Source: a virus. From it: a stretch of 22,354 nt of DNA. The notes under the pieces were generated by a model. The model was not told where the DNA came from. It ran no database searches and saw only the letters and a list, made by a program, of their open reading frames with translations. Position 1 is the stretch's first letter; each line of letters starts with the position of its first letter. Both the position numbers and the translations under genes were made by a program. The stretch spans positions 1 through 22,354 of the IMG/VR virus record IMGVR_UViG_3300034068_000810. The stretch is one strand, 5' to 3'. Shown in pieces: positions 2,847 to 19,930 of this stretch.

Positions 2847-3220
2847 AATTTATTGATTTTAGTTATATACTCTTCTTGAATACTTGTGTTTGCTCCTATG
2901 TAATATCCTTCTCTCATTTTGAATGCCCGATATTCAAATGGCTGATCTTTATAATTTGTATATACAATGTACTGATTATCAGGATCAAATCGTGCGTGGA
3001 ACACTTGAGTGTCTTCTTGTTCTTCTAAACTTTTCTTGTACCACTCACTTTTGTTCATCCAATCGAACAATCTTTCTCTCTCATCTTCAGTCATCTGATG
3101 CCAATATTTACTGGTGAGGTGTTGCCAAAACATAGCCCTAGCTATTGGTCTTGGTGGTATGCAAGCCTCAGCTAAAAAAGCTAGCTCAAAGAAATCAATT
3201 TCGAATTTGCTCATGTCCAT
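2843..3220 (-). CDS. Hypothetical protein
   Basis: 125 aa. Residues 10-60 are rich in aromatic helices (MTEDERERLFDWM); the C-terminal half looks beta-rich (DNQYIVYTNYKDQPFEYRAF). It overlaps the next gene upstream by 26 bp and the gene downstream by 4 bp. No known domain was recognised. Its place in the replication block suggests an accessory early protein, which is inference only. Confidence 0.7.
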   Translation of the reverse strand: MDMSKFEIDFFELAFLAEACIPPRPIARAMFWQHLTSKYWHQMTEDERERLFDWMNKSEWYKKSLEEQEDTQVFHARFDPDNQYIVYTNYKDQPFEYRAFKMREGYYIGANTSIQEEYITKINKL

Positions 3221-3491
3221 GATATTTTAAAAATAAATACTCCGCCTGATCGGTAACCGTATAACCATTCAAGTGGTCAGTTATCACAATCATGGCTTGC
3301 CTTAGTAATTCTTCTTGTTGAGATAACTTCTCGAGATATAGGATGGCATCCATCAATTCTTGCTTCATGTGAATCTGCCATTCTAACGTACTTAAATCCT
3401 TTCGGTCTAAGGTTGTGTTGTACTTCTTAATTCCAACGGCTGAGCGTTCTCTAAACTGCTCAATGACCGACTCTACTACTGTGTCTTTCAT
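3195..3491 (-). CDS. MazG-like / dNTP pyrophosphohydrolase-like small protein
   Basis: 98 aa. Residues 13-56 follow the phage all-alpha NTP-pyrophosphatase pattern: a basic GIKKYNTTLDRKDL segment, then a helix QELMDAILYLEKL whose E45 and D48 sit where metal ligands occur in MazG-like enzymes. Phages use such enzymes to adjust dNTP or (p)ppGpp pools. The acidic motif is sparser than in classical MazG, so catalysis is not assured. It is the first gene left of the structured RNA island, directly after a terminator-like hairpin. Confidence 0.5.
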   Translation of the reverse strand: MKDTVVESVIEQFRERSAVGIKKYNTTLDRKDLSTLEWQIHMKQELMDAILYLEKLSQQEELLRQAMIVITDHLNGYTVTDQAEYLFLKYHGHEQIRN

Positions 3492-3512: not shown

Positions 3513-3535
3513 AAAAACGCTTGTCTTTCCAAGCT
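3513..3535 (-). terminator. Intrinsic terminator-like hairpin ending the RNA array
   Basis: On the minus strand, GCTTG-GAAAGA-CAAGC forms a 5-bp stem with a 6-nt loop (3534-3519), followed by GTTTTTATT. It sits after the structured RNA island and 22 nt before the gene starting at 3491, so it may end the tRNA-like transcript or attenuate readthrough. The loop GAAAGA also occurs in two hairpins in front of the tRNA-like genes. Confidence 0.6.
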
Positions 3536-3591
3536 GTCAATTGACTTTAAGTATTCAATCAGTAGCATCAGCTACACTATCTATCAAGGAC

Positions 3592-3637
3592 GGTAATATC
3601 CCATAGACATTGTGGCTTCTATATTACCCATACCACA
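3592..3637 (-). ncRNA. Predicted H-type pseudoknot downstream of tRNA-like gene
   Basis: Read on the minus strand, TGTGG (3637-3633) can pair with CCACA (3615-3611), and GGTAATAT (3628-3621) with ATATTACC (3599-3592). The two stems interleave, giving a classic H-type pseudoknot of 5 and 8 bp. It starts 6 nt after the 3' end of the tRNA-like gene at 3644. A TATGGGTAATA plus TATGGGATA pair of motifs here recurs at 3943-3922. Folding is deduced from complementarity only. Confidence 0.45.
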
Positions 3638-3643
3638 AAAGTG

Positions 3644-3731
3644 TAGCAAGGATAGGATTCAAACCTATTTCGTCCTTCCAGTCCTTTCAGACCTGATAAT
3701 GAAGGGTGTTACCAATATACACCACCTTGCT
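3644..3731 (-). tRNA. tRNA-like gene with a 22-nt anticodon loop (identity unclear)
   Basis: 88 nt. All tRNA arms are present: acceptor AGCAAGG/CCTTGCT (7 bp), D arm GTGT-ATATTGGTA-ACAC, anticodon stem CCTTC/GAAGG, variable loop ACGAA (5 nt), T arm ATAGG-TTTGAAT-CCTAT, discriminator A and no encoded CCA. The loop between the anticodon stem strands (3700-3679) is 22 nt instead of 7. It holds a possible weak inner helix (CAGGT/GACTG, one mismatch) that would present CTGAAAG with GAA (Phe) as anticodon. Base 26 is missing. It could be a spliced tRNA, a decoy, or a degenerate gene. The tRNA fold is well supported; function is not. Confidence 0.6.
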
Positions 3732-3735
3732 ATGT

Positions 3736-3752
3736 AGCCGTCTTTCCGAGCT
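3736..3752 (-). ncRNA. Repeat hairpin with GAAAGA loop in front of tRNA-like gene
   Basis: Minus strand AGCTCG-GAAAGA-CGGCT, a 5-bp stem with one bulged T. It ends exactly 4 nt (ACAT) before the tRNA-like gene that starts at 3731. The upstream TTGACAGCT is shared with the terminator-like hairpin at 3534. This may be a processing signal in the 5' leader. Confidence 0.5.
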
Positions 3753-3800
3753 GTCAATAGTTTAACCGTTCTTCTCGAACGATCGACATCACTATAAGTG

Positions 3801-3892
3801 TCAAGTGAGTAAGATTTGAACTTACAATTGGACAGAATGAATGATTCCAACCTTAGACATTCTTTTGCGTCTACCAGTTCCGCCATCACTTG
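3801..3892 (-). tRNA. tRNA-Leu-like gene with enlarged anticodon arm
   Basis: 92 nt. Acceptor CAAGTGA/TCACTTG, a leucine-type D arm (TGGCGGAACTGGTAGACGC), T arm GTAAG-TTCAAAT-CTTAC, discriminator A, no encoded CCA. Between base 26 and the T stem there are 40 nt, against about 27-33 in normal class II tRNA-Leu. Two pairings are possible: GAATG/CATTC with a 14-nt loop, or AGAATG/CATTCT with an 18-nt loop. No ordinary 7-nt loop gives a good stem. The loop contains GTCTAAG, which would place CTA (amber) after U33, or TAA (Leu) after C33. Identity as a Leu-type fold is fair; the anticodon is unresolved. Confidence 0.6.
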
Positions 3893-3896
3893 ATTT

Positions 3897-3912
3897 ACCA
3901 GTCTTTCCTGGT
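3897..3912 (-). ncRNA. Repeat hairpin with GAAAGA loop in front of tRNA-Leu-like gene
   Basis: Minus strand ACCAG-GAAAGA-CTGGT, a perfect 5-bp stem. It ends exactly 4 nt (AAAT) before the tRNA-Leu-like gene that starts at 3892, the same arrangement as the hairpin at 3752-3736. The stem sequence differs while loop and spacing are kept, which points to selection on structure. Confidence 0.5.
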
Positions 3913-3963
3913 CGTCACCCCTATCCCATAGGTATTACCCATATCGTAGTAAAGCTTGGGAGG

Positions 3964-4134
3964 CTATTTAGTTAAAGACATCCAGCTACCAACATAGAAT
4001 GGCATCATAGCCCATCCAAATGTTATAGATAGTAAAAATTTTAATGCGACATTAACGATACCATCAGTCTCGTTATGAGTTACTCCCAGCGTAAATAACG
4101 CTGAGAATAACATATAAATTACTACACCTAACAT
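3964..4134 (-). CDS. Small two-helix membrane protein
   Basis: 56 aa, MLGVVIYMLF to GSWMSLTK, stop TAG. Two hydrophobic segments (about residues 2-18 and 30-50) predict an inner-membrane hairpin. Its ATG overlaps the TGA of the SSB-like gene (TGATG), which supports the start and coupled translation. It is the last coding sequence before the structured RNA island. Function unknown. Confidence 0.65.
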   Translation of the reverse strand: MLGVVIYMLFSALFTLGVTHNETDGIVNVALKFLLSITFGWAMMPFYVGSWMSLTK

Positions 4135-5729: not shown

Positions 5730-5950
5730 TTTATTTGATTTGATTTTGTTACTTGATTGTAGTACTCTCGAGCATCTGTAAGATATGCTCTGTTCTCATT
5801 ATTAAACATCTCACCAATCTCTGTACCTTGCATATAGGCATCTATGATCTCTTGCTTATGCATCTCTATCGCCTTGTTGTATGCTTTTTTGAATGATGGA
5901 GCTAACTGATCCCCAAAGTATTCATGTATTAAATAGTCTACTGCTGTCAT
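5726..5950 (-). CDS. Small TAVxxL-motif protein
   Basis: 74 aa. It begins MTAVDYLIHEYFG and ends REYYNQVTKSNQIK, matching the TAVEWL small-protein set at both ends (N-terminal TAV-x-x-L, late YYN). The middle (FKKAYNKAIEMHKQEIIDAY) is helical. It overlaps the downstream gene by 4 bp. Function unknown. Confidence 0.75.
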   Translation of the reverse strand: MTAVDYLIHEYFGDQLAPSFKKAYNKAIEMHKQEIIDAYMQGTEIGEMFNNENRAYLTDAREYYNQVTKSNQIK

Positions 5951-5955
5951 CTGAT

Positions 5956-6330
5956 TTAAAGTTGGGCGTCAAAGTTAACTAACATTTGTTGAAATTCCAA
6001 TAATTTTTCATTATTTTTTTCAACTCTTTTTCTAAGCATCTCTTTATCAACAGCTTCTGTGGTTAGCAAATACTCCTGAAGACCTATCTTCTTTTTAAGT
6101 ACATCAATGTTTACAGTTATACATCCAACCTCCCAGCCAAGGTCATTGAAGACCTTGAGCTGATTAGCTGTTACCCTTTCAAAATTCTCTGATGGTGTCA
6201 TTGTATTCTTTATCTCTATTCTGCCATCCTTATCGAACCGTTCGATCTTTACACCCATGTCAATGTAGTACTCACTGTTGTTGGTTTGGTATGGTTTTAC
6301 CTTACTCAATAAATCATTCCATGCTTTCAT
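5956..6330 (-). CDS. Hypothetical protein with C-terminal coiled coil
   Basis: 124 aa. The first 75 residues are mixed alpha/beta (IERFDKDGRIEIKNTMT); residues 75-118 are a charged helix likely to form a coiled coil (DKEMLRKRVEKNNEKLLEF). Five bases separate its stop from the TAVxxL gene. Not recognised. Confidence 0.65.
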   Translation of the reverse strand: MKAWNDLLSKVKPYQTNNSEYYIDMGVKIERFDKDGRIEIKNTMTPSENFERVTANQLKVFNDLGWEVGCITVNIDVLKKKIGLQEYLLTTEAVDKEMLRKRVEKNNEKLLEFQQMLVNFDAQL

Positions 6331-6331
6331 A

Positions 6332-6715
6332 TCATTCGTATGTTAGTTCTACAATAACACCATCGTTGTCAATCACGTCAAACAAATGGTTTTTCTTTTT
6401 CTTAATAGTGGCAAACAAGATGTCATACTTACCCTCAAACCTTACAATAACACCAACGTTTACCATGCCTTTAGCATTAGACTTGAAGGAATCAAAGATT
6501 ACTGGATTGTTACCCCAATTTATAACCATAGATGTTGTGTCACACCCATTCATATCAACTATCGCCCTATATCTCTCAACTGCCTCCTTTTCCGTTTTGA
6601 CCGTCAACATGTACGAGCCATCATCAAAAACCTCAAAGCCAGATAATCCAACAATCTGGGTGAATGCCGTAATGTTGATACTCAACATGACAGCAATAAT
6701 TACTAAATTTTGCAT
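6332..6715 (-). CDS. Hypothetical protein with N-terminal hydrophobic segment
   Basis: 127 aa. Residues 2-19 (NLVIIAVMLSINITAFTQ) look like a signal peptide or membrane anchor. The rest is beta-rich and ends in a lysine run (IKKKKNHLF) and VIVELTYE. Its ATG lies inside the end of the small membrane gene upstream (13-bp overlap), so the pair may act together at the membrane. A long plus-strand frame across this region is its antisense shadow. Function unknown. Confidence 0.65.
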   Translation of the reverse strand: MQNLVIIAVMLSINITAFTQIVGLSGFEVFDDGSYMLTVKTEKEAVERYRAIVDMNGCDTTSMVINWGNNPVIFDSFKSNAKGMVNVGVIVRFEGKYDILFATIKKKKNHLFDVIDNDGVIVELTYE

Positions 6716-6873
6716 ATTACAACGTATAAAATGTTTAAAAATGATAATAACATTATTGGTAAACTTACCAATAAAACAACCGTCCGAATAACGTGGTTGT
6801 TTATCTTACAAGCCATCATAAGTACCTCGTACATTAAGAATGGGAATAAAATGGTTAAGATGATAAAATACAT
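6703..6873 (-). CDS. Small two-helix membrane protein
   Basis: 56 aa, MYFIILTILF to LYVVICKI, stop TAG. Hydrophobic segments at about residues 2-22 and 30-55 are separated by a short polar loop (CKINNHVIR). No alternative in-frame start exists before an upstream stop. It overlaps the next gene by 13 bp and follows the other membrane gene after 45 nt. Composition and overlap support it, but it is short and unrecognised. Confidence 0.5.
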   Translation of the reverse strand: MYFIILTILFPFLMYEVLMMACKINNHVIRTVVLLVSLPIMLLSFLNILYVVICKI

Positions 6874-6918
6874 ACATAAAGAATTTGATTGTGAACATTC
6901 GCCTTGGCTATGGCATCC

Positions 6919-7143
6919 TCATAACTTGATGCCTCTAATGTTATACCAGTGCATAGCTCGTCTGATATAGCGTAACAGATGTGATACCTTTTCATAAATT
7001 TGAAAGATTAAAATTAATAATATGACTATCCACCCAAATAGAATGGCTATAATATATGTTTCCCAATTATACCTAATCGACAAACCTGATTCCATGCATA
7101 CCAAAATGGATAGCAAGAATGAAATAATAAAGTAGTACATCAT
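6919..7143 (-). CDS. Small membrane protein
   Basis: 74 aa. Two predicted membrane helices (about residues 3-17 and 29-50) are followed by a basic cytoplasmic tail (HLLRYIRRAMHWYNIRG). It overlaps the zinc-ribbon gene upstream by 4 bp. It forms a cluster of membrane genes with 6703-6873 and 6332-6715. Small phage membrane proteins may act in superinfection exclusion or lysis control, but nothing here decides this. Confidence 0.65.
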   Translation of the reverse strand: MMYYFIISFLLSILVCMESGLSIRYNWETYIIAILFGWIVILLILIFQIYEKVSHLLRYIRRAMHWYNIRGIKL

Positions 7144-7451
7144 AGGTCTCTAAGTTTAGCTGCAAACTCATAGTCCTCTACATCTACCGCCCTCTGTAGT
7201 GCCTTGTCCTTGTCAGCAAGCAACACGAACTCATCTGTAGGTGTCCACATCATACCGCCAGTGTGTAACATCGTACCGCACTTACACTTAACAGCTTGAA
7301 AGTTAGTACGTTGTCCTATGTTTATTAAATGACGCAAACAATATATACAGTGAGTGGTCTCATTAACTAAGTACACACTACCCTTTCGCCTAAATTGACT
7401 CTGCTCATTCGGAGCGTCCGACAGAGCGATTACTTTATCTCCTTGTTTCAT
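7140..7451 (-). CDS. Zinc-ribbon protein with C-terminal UVR-like motif
   Basis: 103 aa. C35-x2-C38 and C56-x-C58 form a likely zinc site. Residues 88-103 (AVDVEDYEFAAKLRDL) match the UVR motif of UvrB and UvrC, a helical hairpin for protein-protein contact that also occurs in ClpC-associated McsA-type zinc proteins. It could be an adaptor that contacts host repair or protease machinery; that is inference. It overlaps both neighbours. Confidence 0.7.
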   Translation of the reverse strand: MKQGDKVIALSDAPNEQSQFRRKGSVYLVNETTHCIYCLRHLINIGQRTNFQAVKCKCGTMLHTGGMMWTPTDEFVLLADKDKALQRAVDVEDYEFAAKLRDL

Positions 7452-7629
7452 GTTCCCTAAAATTATAGTGAGGTCGCATTACCTCATCTCTGTTAATACC
7501 ATCGAGGTAGCCTTGAACATACCCAGTGTTCACATCCAAGGCTCTCTGCCTATTCTCTATCTGATAGAGCTTATCTTTAAGCTCATTATTCGTGATTTGT
7601 AGCTCACGAATGAGCTCATCTACAACCAT
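7435..7629 (-). CDS. Small coiled-coil protein
   Basis: 64 aa. Residues 1-32 (VDELIRELQITNNELKDKLY) have heptad-like leucine spacing and should form a coiled coil; the rest is polar and ends HETRR. It overlaps the zinc-ribbon gene by 17 bp and the small gene upstream by 10 bp. Function unknown. Confidence 0.6.
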   Translation of the reverse strand: MVVDELIRELQITNNELKDKLYQIENRQRALDVNTGYVQGYLDGINRDEVMRPHYNFREHETRR

Positions 7630-7754
7630 GTTATTGATTTTATTTGGCTACCAACATACTTATTGACAATATAGTCATAAGCCTTCGAAATAGTGCTGTT
7701 CTCTAAGGTCGCTCTTCTTACCTCTCCTTTGTATTTATATATTATCTCTATCAT
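7620..7754 (-). CDS. Very small basic hypothetical protein
   Basis: 44 aa, MIEIIYKYKGEVRRATLENS onward, stop TAG. It fills the gap between two overlapping genes, sharing 20 bp with the gene upstream and 10 bp downstream, as typical for this block. It looks like a small alpha/beta protein (EIIYKYKGE strand, SKAYDYIVNKY helix). Not recognised. Confidence 0.55.
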   Translation of the reverse strand: MIEIIYKYKGEVRRATLENSTISKAYDYIVNKYVGSQIKSITWL

Positions 7755-7995
7755 ATTGTTTAATTAAGTCCGACTGCTCCTGAATTCTTTTATCCTTATG
7801 TCTCAACTTGGCTGACTTCCTAAACGAGTCAGCGTGCAAGTCCTTTAGGTTTTCTAATAGACTATCAAAACGAGCTCTGAGCCTAATGTTTTTCTCGTAC
7901 TCCATCTCATTTTTCTTCTTAAATTCAGCCAATAGCCGAAGCGTGATTGCATTACTGACTATCAGCAATACAATTAAACCTGTTTCTATGTTCAT
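7735..7995 (-). CDS. Membrane-anchored coiled-coil protein (spanin- or Rz-like in shape)
   Basis: 86 aa. Residues 5-21 (TGLIVLLIVSNAITLRL) form one N-terminal membrane helix, then a long charged helix (residues 24-84) with coiled-coil character. This N-anchor plus periplasmic coiled coil resembles i-spanins such as Rz, but no holin or endolysin is nearby and the gene sits in the early block, so a lysis role is only one option. It overlaps the upstream gene by 4 bp. Confidence 0.6.
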   Translation of the reverse strand: MNIETGLIVLLIVSNAITLRLLAEFKKKNEMEYEKNIRLRARFDSLLENLKDLHADSFRKSAKLRHKDKRIQEQSDLIKQYDRDNI

Positions 7996-8207
7996 ATTAT
8001 TTGTTTATAGCGAGACATCTTTATCCCATGTTTATTTATTTTGTGCAACCCTAATTCTGAATTTAATTTTCGTGTTTCTTTATTTTGCATTCTTGATGGT
8101 GTTACAACCCATACATCATCATTGCCATCAATTATGTTTATGTTTTGACTATGTAAATATTCTGAAATATCTTTCATGGCAATTCTGGCTGAATAACTTT
8201 CTTGCAT
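7992..8207 (-). CDS. Small hypothetical protein
   Basis: 71 aa. N-terminal helix (ARIAMKDISEYLHSQ), then IIDGNDDVWVVTPSRM, and a basic C-terminus (KINKHGIKMSRYKQII). One base separates it from the TAVEWL gene upstream, and it overlaps the next by 4 bp. Its DNA is noticeably more AT-rich than the genes to its left. Not recognised. Confidence 0.6.
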   Translation of the reverse strand: MQESYSARIAMKDISEYLHSQNINIIDGNDDVWVVTPSRMQNKETRKLNSELGLHKINKHGIKMSRYKQII

Positions 8208-8208
8208 A

Positions 8209-8469
8209 TCATTCTGATTTAAAGGTTTCTTTGTAGTATTGTTCTGCTCTTTCTTTTGAAACTAAATATTCTTCATCTGATATTTCTCCATCTTCATATA
8301 GTGTTAAATCAATTAATGCTTGACTATAACTATTACATATTTGCTCTTTTTCTATTTTTTTGGCTTGTTTAATTAGTTTTTTAATTGTAAAATTTCTAAG
8401 ACTTATTTCTTCAATTTTATAAGCTATTGCTAATGCTTCAGCTAACCATTCTACTGCTGTCTGTTTCAT
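8209..8469 (-). CDS. Small TAVEWL-motif protein
   Basis: 86 aa. It begins MKQTAVEWLAEAL and ends EQYYKETFKSE, very like the typical TAVEWL small proteins of flavobacterial phages. The middle is a lysine and isoleucine-rich helix. It is encoded in strongly AT-rich DNA. Function unknown. Confidence 0.75.
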   Translation of the reverse strand: MKQTAVEWLAEALAIAYKIEEISLRNFTIKKLIKQAKKIEKEQICNSYSQALIDLTLYEDGEISDEEYLVSKERAEQYYKETFKSE

Positions 8470-8480
8470 TTTATTGTAAT

Positions 8481-8717
8481 TTAAAAGTTAAATAATCTTT
8501 GTAAAAAACTTTTCGGTTGTGTTTTTTCAAGTATTGCCACAATTATTTCTGTATTTACTTGCTCTTGACCAGCAGGTAATGTTGTAAACCAATCTTCACC
8601 TAAAAAATGGTTTGTTAATATTTTAAATGCCTCTTCTGATGTTGTAGGTGGAGGACATATTCCATAGTCAATTTTTGACTTTTTTCTTTGTTCTTCTAAA
8701 AATTGTTCTGCTGTCAT
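8481..8717 (-). CDS. Small hypothetical phage protein with TAExxL start
   Basis: 78 aa. It begins MTAEQFLEEQRKK, a diverged form of the TAVEWL start. The region PPPTTSEEAFKILTNHFLGE followed by GQEQVNTEIIVAIL resembles a small protein I recognise from Bacteroidota phages without a known role. Its start is one base after the stop of the 31-aa gene upstream. Confidence 0.7.
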   Translation of the reverse strand: MTAEQFLEEQRKKSKIDYGICPPPTTSEEAFKILTNHFLGEDWFTTLPAGQEQVNTEIIVAILEKTQPKSFLQRLFNF

Positions 8718-8718
8718 C

Positions 8719-8814
8719 TTATTTCTTTTTAAATTTCCTAACTATTATTACTACTGCATAACACATTAACAAACCAATAAACATTCCTTCAAATCCTCCA
8801 ATTATTTGTTTCAT
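8719..8814 (-). CDS. 31-aa single-pass membrane peptide
   Basis: MKQIIGGFEGMFIGLLMCYA then VVIIVRKFKKK, stop TAA. It has one hydrophobic helix (about residues 9-25) and a basic C-terminus. It fits exactly between two genes with 1-bp gaps, and both junctions carry the repeated AATTTAAAAAGAAATA block, which supports it as a real reading unit. Too short for a family call. Confidence 0.45.
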   Translation of the reverse strand: MKQIIGGFEGMFIGLLMCYAVVIIVRKFKKK

Positions 8815-8815
8815 A

Positions 8816-9592
8816 CTATTTCTTTTTAAATTGTTCAAACCATTCTTTAAATGCACCAAAATGTTTGAATTCTTTTTCACCAAATGTATAAGCATCTCTT
8901 ACTATTTTTTCAACTTCTTCCTCACTATACATTCTTTCTTGTTGCCATTTAACACCTGCAATAAATAAAGTTTCATCTTTGAATAACCCACTATTTACTG
9001 CTCTTTTTGATGCTTCTTCTAATGTTTCACTAACAGGTGGCTCCCATACTTTACCTGTATATGGTATATGTTTAGTTTCTTCTTTAATAAGCTTTCCTTG
9101 ATTATCAAAAAATAATTGATTGCCATTTTCAGAAAAAACAAGTGGGTGTTTATATTCTTCTTCTTGTGGAATTATTAGTTGATAACTATAGTGAGTGCTT
9201 GGATTTCCTTCTTTCCATATATCTGCAACCTCAACACTCTCACAACTATTGTTATCAACAAACCATTCTAAAAACTTATCATCAATAGATTGAACACCAT
9301 CTGCAATTAAGTCTTGGTCTGTTGTTAGGATGATTTTAGAACCTTCATTATTAAAATCAGTATATAAAAGTAAATCTTCTTTAGTTACTTTATGAACCCA
9401 TTCTTTATCTATGTGTTTCACAAATAATTTAACCCAATCACCTTCTTTAATTTCTTCTGAATTAGTGATGTATAAGTTTTGGTTTGTGCAATCTGAATAA
9501 GACTTTGCTTCCATACTTAAAAATAAAGTATTGTGTCTATTTATTTGTAACCTACTTGGTTTCTCCGTTGGTAATAAATGTATGTTTTTCAT
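8816..9592 (-). CDS. Conserved Bacteroidota phage protein (MKNIHLLPTEKPSRL type)
   Basis: 258 aa, stop TAG. The start MKNIHLLPTEKPSRL, then TNQNLYITNSEEIKEGDWV, IILTTDQDLIADGVQSIDD and FLEWFVDNNSCESVEV form a pattern I recognise from many hypothetical proteins of flavobacterial phages; no biochemical role is known to me. The C-terminus is a charged helix (SEEEVEKIVRDAYTFGEKE) ending EQFKKK. The next gene downstream starts one base after its stop. Confidence 0.8.
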   Translation of the reverse strand: MKNIHLLPTEKPSRLQINRHNTLFLSMEAKSYSDCTNQNLYITNSEEIKEGDWVKLFVKHIDKEWVHKVTKEDLLLYTDFNNEGSKIILTTDQDLIADGVQSIDDKFLEWFVDNNSCESVEVADIWKEGNPSTHYSYQLIIPQEEEYKHPLVFSENGNQLFFDNQGKLIKEETKHIPYTGKVWEPPVSETLEEASKRAVNSGLFKDETLFIAGVKWQQERMYSEEEVEKIVRDAYTFGEKEFKHFGAFKEWFEQFKKK

Positions 9593-18057: not shown

Positions 18058-18080
18058 CCCTCCAATCGGAGGGTTTTTTT
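18058..18080 (+). terminator. Intrinsic terminator after the lysine-rich gene
   Basis: CCCTCC-AATC-GGAGGG, a perfect 6-bp GC-rich stem with a 4-nt loop, followed by seven T. It starts 5 nt after the stop codon. The end of its T run doubles as the -33 TTTG of the chaperonin promoter. Confidence 0.92.
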
Positions 18081-18109
18081 GTTTTATGTCACATTTATTA
18101 CTAAATTTG
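18078..18109 (+). promoter_or_regulatory. Chaperonin operon promoter
   Basis: TTTG (18078-18081), 20 nt, TAAATTTG (18102-18109), a near-perfect Bacteroidota promoter. It shows that the groEL start is 18127, since an in-frame ATG near 18079 would lie upstream of transcription. It overlaps the preceding terminator's T tract. Confidence 0.8.
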
Positions 18110-18126
18110 TGTCAAAATATAATAAA

Positions 18127-19689
18127 ATGATAGTAAAAGAGATCCATTTTGGCGATGAAGGTCAAAAAAAGCTTAAAAGCGGCATCAAAAAGATTGCTGG
18201 AGCGGTAAAAAGCACATTAGGTGCAAGAGGTAGGACTGTTTTGATTGAGTCCGAGAATCACGTAGGTGGTTTAACAGTTACAAAGGACGGTGTAACGGTA
18301 GCTAAGTCTATCAATCTGTATGATCCGACTGAAAACTTGGCTGTAATGATGATGAGACAAGCTGCTGAGCGCACTGCTACGGTTGCTGGTGATGGAACTA
18401 CAACATCAATTGTATTAGCTGAGGCTATTATTGATGCGGCTGATGATTTTTTAACACCAGAGGACAATGTAACGGAGGTAATTAGAGAGATCAACCAGAT
18501 AACTTCTCAAGTTGTCAACCAACTAGACAAGTCTTCAAAGAAACTTAGTGGAAAGAAGTTATTGGATGTCGCTACAATATCTGCAAATAACGACAGAGAG
18601 GTCGGTAAGATGATCGCTGATTCATTCAAGGAGGTCGACATGGTTACTGTTGAGAACAGCATGACAACATCAACGTATGTTGAGATCATTAAAGGTATGA
18701 AGATCGACAGAGGATTTACCTCAAAGTATTTTATCAATGACCACAAGAAGCAAGAGTGTGTGTTAGACAATCCGTACATTTTGATTAGTGATCACGAGAT
18801 TAACAACCTTCAAAACTTGGAGCGTATATTAATTCCTATCATCCAGAACGAACGTTCGTTGCTTATCATTGGTGAGTTAGGTCAGAATGCATTGAACACA
18901 TTAAATCTTAATGTTGCTCAGGGAAAAATTAAAACGTGTGCTATTATGCCGCCATCGTTTGGTTACAGACAGAAAGACTTGTTGAGTGACTTGGCTGTGG
19001 CATTGGGTGGTACATACTTCTCTGAGGATACTGGGGATGACTTATCGTTGATTGATTTGGACCACTTGGGTTCAGCGTCTAAGGTTATCGTAAGTAAGGG
19101 TATGACAGTGTTTATGCACAAGGCTAGTCAGGAGGATGCGATCAATGGTCGTGTTGAGGAGTTAAAAGAGTTGAGAGCTGAGACATCTAATGCTGAGGAC
19201 AAGGCGTTTTTAAATGAGCGAATTGCTAATCTATCTGGTGGTGTTGGTGTTATCTATGTGGGAGCATTGAGCGACATTGAACAGAAAGAAAAGAAGGATA
19301 GAATTGACGATGCTGTGTGTGCTGTTCAAGCCGCTTTAGAGGACGGAATACTTCCAGGTGGAGGTGTTGCATTGCTTAACTGTGTACCATCTCTTAAATT
19401 AGATAATACGGCTAATAAGATAATGGCAGCTGCGTTATTCGCACCATTCTTCCAGATTGTAATAAATGCTGGCAAGGATGCTGGAGATATATATGGTGGT
19501 ATTGATGGAACAACTGGTTACGGTTATGACGTTAAGAACGAGCAGTATGGTGACATGATCAAGCTTGGTATCATTGATCCAACGAAGGTAACTAAGAACG
19601 CACTATTGAATGCTGTGTCTGTTGCTACAACAATTATGAGTACAAATGCTATTATAACAAATGTAAGAGATTATGAAGGTTCTAAATAA
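18127..19689 (+). CDS. groEL: Phage-encoded GroEL-type chaperonin
   Basis: 520 aa, start MIVKEIHFG chosen after the promoter. Conserved equatorial motifs: KDG at 53-55, DGTTT at 89-93 (catalytic Asp), the D398 equivalent D395 in RIDDAV, PGGGVALL at 410-417, DPTKV at 484-488. Apical domain about 185-370 with KGMKIDRGFTSKYF. The C-terminal GGM-rich tail of bacterial GroEL is missing; it ends VRDYEGSK. GroEL folds proteins in an ATP-driven ring with GroES. A phage copy suggests capsid or other virion proteins need a tailored chamber. First of a two-gene operon. Confidence 0.95.
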   Translation: MIVKEIHFGDEGQKKLKSGIKKIAGAVKSTLGARGRTVLIESENHVGGLTVTKDGVTVAKSINLYDPTENLAVMMMRQAAERTATVAGDGTTTSIVLAEAIIDAADDFLTPEDNVTEVIREINQITSQVVNQLDKSSKKLSGKKLLDVATISANNDREVGKMIADSFKEVDMVTVENSMTTSTYVEIIKGMKIDRGFTSKYFINDHKKQECVLDNPYILISDHEINNLQNLERILIPIIQNERSLLIIGELGQNALNTLNLNVAQGKIKTCAIMPPSFGYRQKDLLSDLAVALGGTYFSEDTGDDLSLIDLDHLGSASKVIVSKGMTVFMHKASQEDAINGRVEELKELRAETSNAEDKAFLNERIANLSGGVGVIYVGALSDIEQKEKKDRIDDAVCAVQAALEDGILPGGGVALLNCVPSLKLDNTANKIMAAALFAPFFQIVINAGKDAGDIYGGIDGTTGYGYDVKNEQYGDMIKLGIIDPTKVTKNALLNAVSVATTIMSTNAIITNVRDYEGSK

Positions 19690-19930
19690 GTTTATATTAA
19701 TAGAAAAGTCTAGTGCTCCGAATGAGAGAGCAAGCGGTCTATTGATGACGTTTGACGATACTAAAGAATTAAGATACCACAAAGCCAGCGTTATTGACGT
19801 TGGCAGTATGGTTAGTGGTATCGTTGCAGACGACACTATCTATTTTGATAAGTCTGCTGGGTATGATGTTTTAATGAATGAAAAGCGATTTACTGTAATT
19901 CAAGAGAAGGACGTTGTTTGCGTTCTTTAA
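19673..19930 (+). CDS. groES: Short GroES-like co-chaperonin
   Basis: 85 aa (E. coli GroES 97). Residues 14-27 hold a mobile-loop-like segment with GLLM at 22-25 in place of GIVL, the GroEL-binding tripeptide. The roof hairpin is shortened: about 8 residues lie between VGS and DTIYF, against about 14 in GroES, reminiscent of T4 gp31, which lacks the roof and encloses a bigger cavity. It overlaps groEL by 17 bp, giving the order groEL-groES, reversed from bacteria. Confidence 0.88.
   Translation: MKVLNKFILIEKSSAPNERASGLLMTFDDTKELRYHKASVIDVGSMVSGIVADDTIYFDKSAGYDVLMNEKRFTVIQEKDVVCVL

Follow-up and report, generated by a model that had tools for sequence, protein, structure and literature searches.

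We analysed a stretch of phage DNA (IMG/VR record IMGVR_UViG_3300034068_000810, positions 1 to 22,354; here called the window, which is a complete 22,354-base IMG/VR phage fragment) that carries two transfer RNA (tRNA)-like genes, tRNA1 and tRNA2. Both genes lack a normal anticodon arm and are not decaying tRNAs. They are probably non-decoding, tRNA-bodied RNAs, that is, natural tRNA scaffolds and not broken tRNAs. As read from the sequence, the tRNA body is kept by compensatory change, the anticodon arm is replaced by a payload that is structured and conserved, the processing context is tRNA-like, and the arrangement is spread among phages. A first-pass annotation of the window had named non-translational tRNA mimics as one possible meaning of the two genes; our analysis supports this idea and extends it to a large class of phage RNAs.

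Two tRNA bodies with a replaced anticodon arm

Both genes possess canonical elongator tRNA features, including a 7-base-pair (bp) acceptor stem, a D arm, and a T arm with a TTC(R)A-type loop. The first-pass annotation had assigned these three arms to each gene, and both exceed the 29-bit cut-off of the Rfam tRNA model RF00005 (Table 1). Specifically, tRNA1 has the acceptor stem AGCAAGG/CCTTGCT, the D arm GTGTATATTGGTAACAC and the T arm ATAGG-TTTGAAT-CCTAT, and tRNA2 has the acceptor stem CAAGTGA/TCACTTG and the T arm GTAAG-TTCAAAT-CTTAC. U-1, A73, and C74 are present in both. A 5-bp anticodon stem with a 7-nucleotide (nt) loop and U33 was found in neither gene, and no model gave a 7-nt anticodon loop, just as had been claimed. 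Default ARAGORN reports only tRNA1, as 'tRNA-???'. The loops agree with their earlier description: the 22-nt loop of tRNA1 is shut by a perfect 5-bp stem and is predicted by folding to be able to form an inner stem or hairpin, while the loop of tRNA2 measures 14 nt if GAATG/CATTC pairs and 18 nt if AGAATG/CATTCT pairs. One point had been missed, namely that TTGGA within the 18-nt loop pairs with TCCAA beyond the stem, giving an H-type pseudoknot. tRNA1 does not match this pseudoknot layout and has its 5-bp stem and 22-nt loop instead.

Table 1 Noncoding features of the window, including the two tRNA-like genes
Feature	Position	Strand	Description
GAC..GGAAAGAC.. hairpin, copy 3	3515-3538	minus	GTTTTT comes next; resembles a terminator closing the noncoding region
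Structured linker	3558-3643	minus	downstream of tRNA1; covarying helices TTGTGG/CCACAA and GGTAATAT/ATATTACC
tRNA1	3644-3731	minus	probable non-decoding tRNA-bodied RNA; type C D arm GTGTA..GGTAACAC; RF00005 35.7 bits
tRNA1 insert	3669-3705	minus	CCTTC/GAAGG stem (3701-3705/3674-3678), 22-nt loop, then 5-nt variable region ACGAA; from sequence and fold
GAC..GGAAAGAC.. hairpin, copy 2	3736-3755	minus	immediately upstream of tRNA1
tRNA2	3801-3892	minus	probable non-decoding tRNA-bodied RNA; Leu-like (type B) D arm; A73; C74 encoded, CCA not encoded; RF00005 36.5 bits; relatives in L004 and L005
tRNA2 insert	3826-3866	minus	replaces the anticodon arm; predicted H-type pseudoknot, S1 3858-3863/3834-3839 (AGAATG/CATTCT), S2 3846-3850/3828-3832 (TTGGA/TCCAA)
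GAC..GGAAAGAC.. hairpin, copy 1	3897-3916	minus	immediately upstream of tRNA2

The comparison of tRNA2 involves the window and two relatives, L004 and L005, whose main DNA alignments are 88-90% identical to the window. In these relatives both sides are changed in six of the seven acceptor pairs and in two T-stem pairs, with pairing intact. Over the whole fold, each of the three phages forms every one of the 26 proposed pairs, with eight double changes; as a control, a shift of the partner by 1-3 columns leaves 30-44% paired. The insert is nearly invariant in the alignment while the acceptor changed, and the sole variation in the pseudoknot helices is A-U versus G-U at one pair in each helix. 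Three sequences give little covariation within the insert itself, so the case for its fold rests on the wider class described below.

The same locus in relatives

We gathered about 140 relative loci via proteins of the same neighbourhood. A tRNA-body descriptor gave 30 distinct matches in these loci versus 0.67 in shuffled sequence, so the tRNA bodies are not due to chance. In about 20 relatives the noncoding region between the neighbouring genes spans about 290-1040 nt and contains tRNA bodies whose middles, measured from D stem to T stem, are 9, 13, 40, 50, 86, or 113 nt long, compared with 22-23 or about 32 nt in ordinary tRNAs. Further relatives have tRNA bodies with 35-, 62-, 67-, 72-, or 76-nt middles elsewhere near these genes, and in other relatives the tRNAs found there are ordinary ones for Tyr, Lys, or Arg. 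The body type of tRNA1 recurs in L023 (6929-7012) with a 35-nt middle.

Reduced forms also occur at this place. In five loci (L011, L019, L021, L061, and L088) only an acceptor and T minihelix like AGTCATGGTA..TACCATGACT is left, and each time the same RNA, conserved and with a terminator hairpin, comes next. Armless forms of type A are rare, their pattern matching only six IMG/VR contigs, all of this phage group. A Ser-like tRNA body with an 86-nt payload was observed in L044:2059-2194, L050:5520-5655, and L062:2519-2654, where the payload has compensatory pairs (ATGCGAC/GTCGCGC versus ATATGAC/GTCATGC), and the same body has only 9 nt in L007, L008, and L015. A pattern search with the 86-nt payload matched six contigs, every match lying inside a tRNA body. 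Additionally, L161:1501-1622 and L044 at about 2200-2400 hold tRNA bodies with an extra D-loop hairpin as well as a replaced anticodon arm.

A wider class of tRNA-bodied phage RNAs

A class pattern consisting of a Leu-type D arm, a 44-74-nt gap, and a T loop matched at least 120 IMG/VR stretches and 38 stretches of a bacterial genome collection. Because the D and T arms were set by the pattern, their conservation in the class arises partly from how matches were selected; acceptor pairing, U48, C74, U-1, and insert structure were not part of it. Among the pattern matches listed, 135 of 163 have at least six of seven acceptor pairs together with the T stem, neither of which the pattern demanded; we estimate a chance expectation of about 1% for acceptor pairing alone. 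The class matches listed include 66 distinct acceptor stems, with about 82-97% Watson-Crick pairing at each pair, and 145 of the 150 distinct Leu-type middles among them have U48, which partners A15. Genomic context was checked for two bacterial examples, L331 (Sphingobacterium paludis) and L320 (Paenibacillus), which lie near terminase genes in apparent prophages. In 50,697 cultured-phage records the AGTCAGG-type body appears in short pieces only, annotated as tRNA-Leu where annotated. The class RNAs are probably under-annotated, because default ARAGORN detects only 15 of 117 members.

The inserts are diverse. Among the matches listed, 136 distinct inserts of at least 40 nt fall into 122 sequence families. 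Several sets (L192/L329/L331, L043/L071, L236/L231, and window/L004) retain the insert although their acceptor stems differ, each stem still fully able to pair, and L274/L207 is a less clear case. As read from these alignments, kept inserts with replaced acceptors are the strongest sign that the insert would be cargo and the body its chassis. We compared 117 nonredundant inserts with dinucleotide shuffles. The mean score of crossing helices in which the final strand finishes beside the T stem is 18.4, versus 12.9 in shuffled sequence (z 6.5); for a single helix with its end there, z is 7.7. Of 59 strong cases, 27 have a final strand that stops exactly two bases short of the T stem.

The flanking bases suggest tRNA-type processing. 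C74 is present in 159 of 168 class elements listed versus 133 of 138 ordinary tRNAs of the same contigs, and U-1 in 129 of 168 versus 92 of 138; in this comparison acceptor pairing was a requirement, whereas U-1 and C74 were left free. Since the acceptor and T arm are what RNase P and RNase Z recognise, loss of the anticodon arm should not block maturation, and we infer that these RNAs mature despite it.

Other structured RNAs were seen on contigs of the class. One viral contig has a GOLLD RNA, a transfer-messenger RNA (tmRNA), about 12 tRNAs, and expanded or shortened tRNA bodies (L274:2643-3056, 2090-2488, and 5911-9369). A Pistol ribozyme (L192:6614-6684) shares its contig with a class member, the insert of which also occurs in Sphingobacterium genomes.

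Comparison with known RNAs

The closest design is an engineered tRNA scaffold, in which the acceptor, T, and D arms are kept and the anticodon stem-loop serves as the insertion site (PMC3753655). There, as in the window RNAs, foreign RNA replaces the anticodon stem-loop, and the design is meant for tRNA-like recognition, processing, and protection from degradation; the window RNAs and the class likewise combine a tRNA body with an apparently independent fold in place of the anticodon arm. The engineered version is man-made, whereas the phage version is natural, phage-encoded, and has many unrelated inserts.

Phage T4 encodes rnaC, a stable RNA whose function is not known (PMC9697503). Comparable to what we propose for the window RNAs, rnaC (species 1 RNA, NC_000866 70908-71046; L342:1409-1547) is a phage stable RNA in a tRNA cluster with a large structured middle. 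It has a perfect T arm, CCGGG-TTCGAAT-CCCGG, near its 3' end and folds far better than shuffles (z -4.4). However, a D arm cannot be recognised in it, its acceptor pairs only in part, and Rfam does not detect it as a tRNA, whereas the D arm of the window RNAs is complete and their acceptor has 7 bp. T4 rnaC may be a remote example of this design.

tmRNA (RF00023) also has tRNA-like ends and an insert containing pseudoknots. The window RNAs differ from it in having no tag reading frame and no G3-U70 (the acceptor position 3 pair is A-U in tRNA2 and C-G in tRNA1), in having a D stem, and in being far shorter; RF00023 gave no match in the window region at E up to 1, and it does find the tmRNA in L274. 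Canonical phage tRNA-Leu shares with the class the D arm GCGGAAYTGGTAGACGC, A15-U48, A73, the T arm, and the processing context, but class RNAs have neither anticodon arm nor anticodon, and their middle of at least 40 nt has an unrelated fold. The eukaryotic mascRNA/MALAT1 tRNA-like RNA, which RNase P and RNase Z recognise, mimics a tRNA but does not decode; unlike the window RNAs, mascRNA has a small reduced anticodon arm, no payload diversity, and a eukaryotic origin.

tRNA-like RNAs are a kind already known. The passages searched of a review of non-canonical tRNAs (PMC7609411) contain no class such as this one. In open-access papers we found no description of natural phage tRNAs with a replaced or missing anticodon arm; an earlier report is possible.

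Proposed function and alternative explanations

We propose that the acceptor stem, D arm, and T arm would fold as a tRNA elbow and that host tRNA enzymes would finish the ends through RNase P, RNase Z, and CCA addition. The product would be a compact, stable, nuclease-resistant RNA, and an active, unrelated folded payload in place of the anticodon arm would be what selection preserves, presumably the H-type pseudoknot in tRNA2 and a long hairpin in tRNA1.

Several points weigh against this proposal. Pseudoknots are enriched and not universal, with 57% of inserts above threshold versus 26% in shuffles. The 9-nt-middle forms have no payload, indicating that the body alone is kept in some phages, which favours pure processing there. 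A pattern search of IMG/VR gave no second copy of the tRNA1 loop sequence; tRNA1 has no close homologue in which conservation of its insert could be assessed, and the argument for it comes from the class, not from relatives of its own. Finally, the role of the payload is speculative: the likeliest one, that it binds or mimics a partner such as a host protein or RNA, for example as an antitoxin-like or decoy RNA, is a doubtful suggestion, made because the inserts are diverse, structured, and often not common to several phages. For a type III antitoxin RNA (ToxI-like pseudoknot), no Rfam antitoxin family matched at the elements scanned.

The main rival, which we consider unlikely, is that the bodies act as processing punctuation, i.e., as RNase P and RNase Z cut sites that free structured RNAs between or around them, with the middle as a spacer. 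It fits the armless forms best, given that armless (9-13 nt) and minihelix forms occur at the same locus, that a structured linker or terminator follows each body, and that the processing-context bases are conserved. A spacer, however, need be neither conserved while acceptors are replaced nor structured beyond chance, as the inserts are. Both readings, punctuation and payload-bearing scaffold, may hold in different phages.

Decoys for host anticodon nucleases or for other tRNA-targeting defence, another meaning offered by the first-pass annotation, are much less probable still. A 2023 eLife study, cited in PMC10865867, reportedly found that phages escape such nucleases through altered anticodon loops, but here no anticodon loop is kept: the loop region, which is what these enzymes recognise, is precisely the part that is absent or hypervariable and unrelated between phages.

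Almost equally improbable, and marginally more so, is that the genes are tRNA pseudogenes in decay, with insertions in the anticodon arm. Degenerate tRNAs are frequent in phages, and the L005 copy of tRNA2 has one bulge and an end mismatch. The eight double compensatory changes in tRNA2, its near-invariant insert, and the different intact acceptor stems of the class argue against decay. Plainly decayed loci in relatives, an outcome that the first-pass annotation had named as refuting its reading, did not appear; the relatives hold compensatory changes.

Ordinary tRNAs with short anticodon-loop introns, spliced by some further step, are the least credible alternative. The insert lies at the usual tRNA intron site, and ARAGORN in intron mode proposes Val and Asp, with introns of 15 and 17 nt, assignments that the relatives do not support. 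No split anticodon stem exists between insert ends (z 0.1 over 117 inserts), a canonical anticodon arm occurs in 1 of 117 inserts, and the 9- and 13-nt middles of armless relatives have no anticodon arm to restore, so the spliced inserts envisaged by the first-pass annotation find no support. Group I introns are also far longer than the 40-113-nt inserts. Rfam intron families gave no match at the elements scanned. An attachment-site remnant was rejected, as both acceptor halves are kept.

Neighbouring elements and genes

The hairpin that precedes each of the two genes occurs in three copies in the window versus 0.04 expected, and similar hairpins precede elements in L016, L044, and L161. The helices of the linker look pseudoknotted, and the linker RNA had no Rfam match. 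A homologue follows a type A RNA in L015 (L015:2917-3000), with TTGCAG/CTGCAA and GGTGACA/TGTCACC. At L015:3090-3185, immediately downstream of the tRNA-like element, there is a strongly conserved RNA (GTTCATGGTGAACAACAGTTATAGTTCTGTGGTTAACCC..), about 95 nt in length and bearing a terminator-like hairpin, which occupies the same place in L008, L011, L012, L017, L019, L021, L050, L061, and L088; it is possibly a small RNA released by the 3' cut of that element.

The two tRNA-like genes lie between a small membrane-type open reading frame (3964-4134) and the open reading frame 3195-3491. The window proteins include a BT4734/VirE-type primase, an SSB-like protein (PHROG), a PD-(D/E)XK nuclease, a DnaA-C-like protein, and a GroEL/GroES pair, the last encoded by overlapping reading frames (18079-19689 and 19673-19930). 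Most of the window's relatives in the cultured-phage collection are flavobacterial. When the window or its tRNA region was compared with the 50,697 cultured-phage records by megablast and blastn, there was no match, and in Rfam scans of elements at the loci scanned tRNA was the sole family matched.

Implications

Together, these findings point, as a tentative possibility, to a phage-wide modular RNA class, in which a constant tRNA-processed body would carry a fast-changing, mostly pseudoknotted payload that acts on a host partner during phage-host conflict, e.g., as a decoy or antitoxin-like RNA. If the scaffold reading is right, the tRNA body would be a general chassis of phages for small functional RNAs, which we knew only as a laboratory design. 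The payloads would then be a set of structured phage RNAs, and the puzzle of T4 rnaC would become approachable as that of a possible distant relative.
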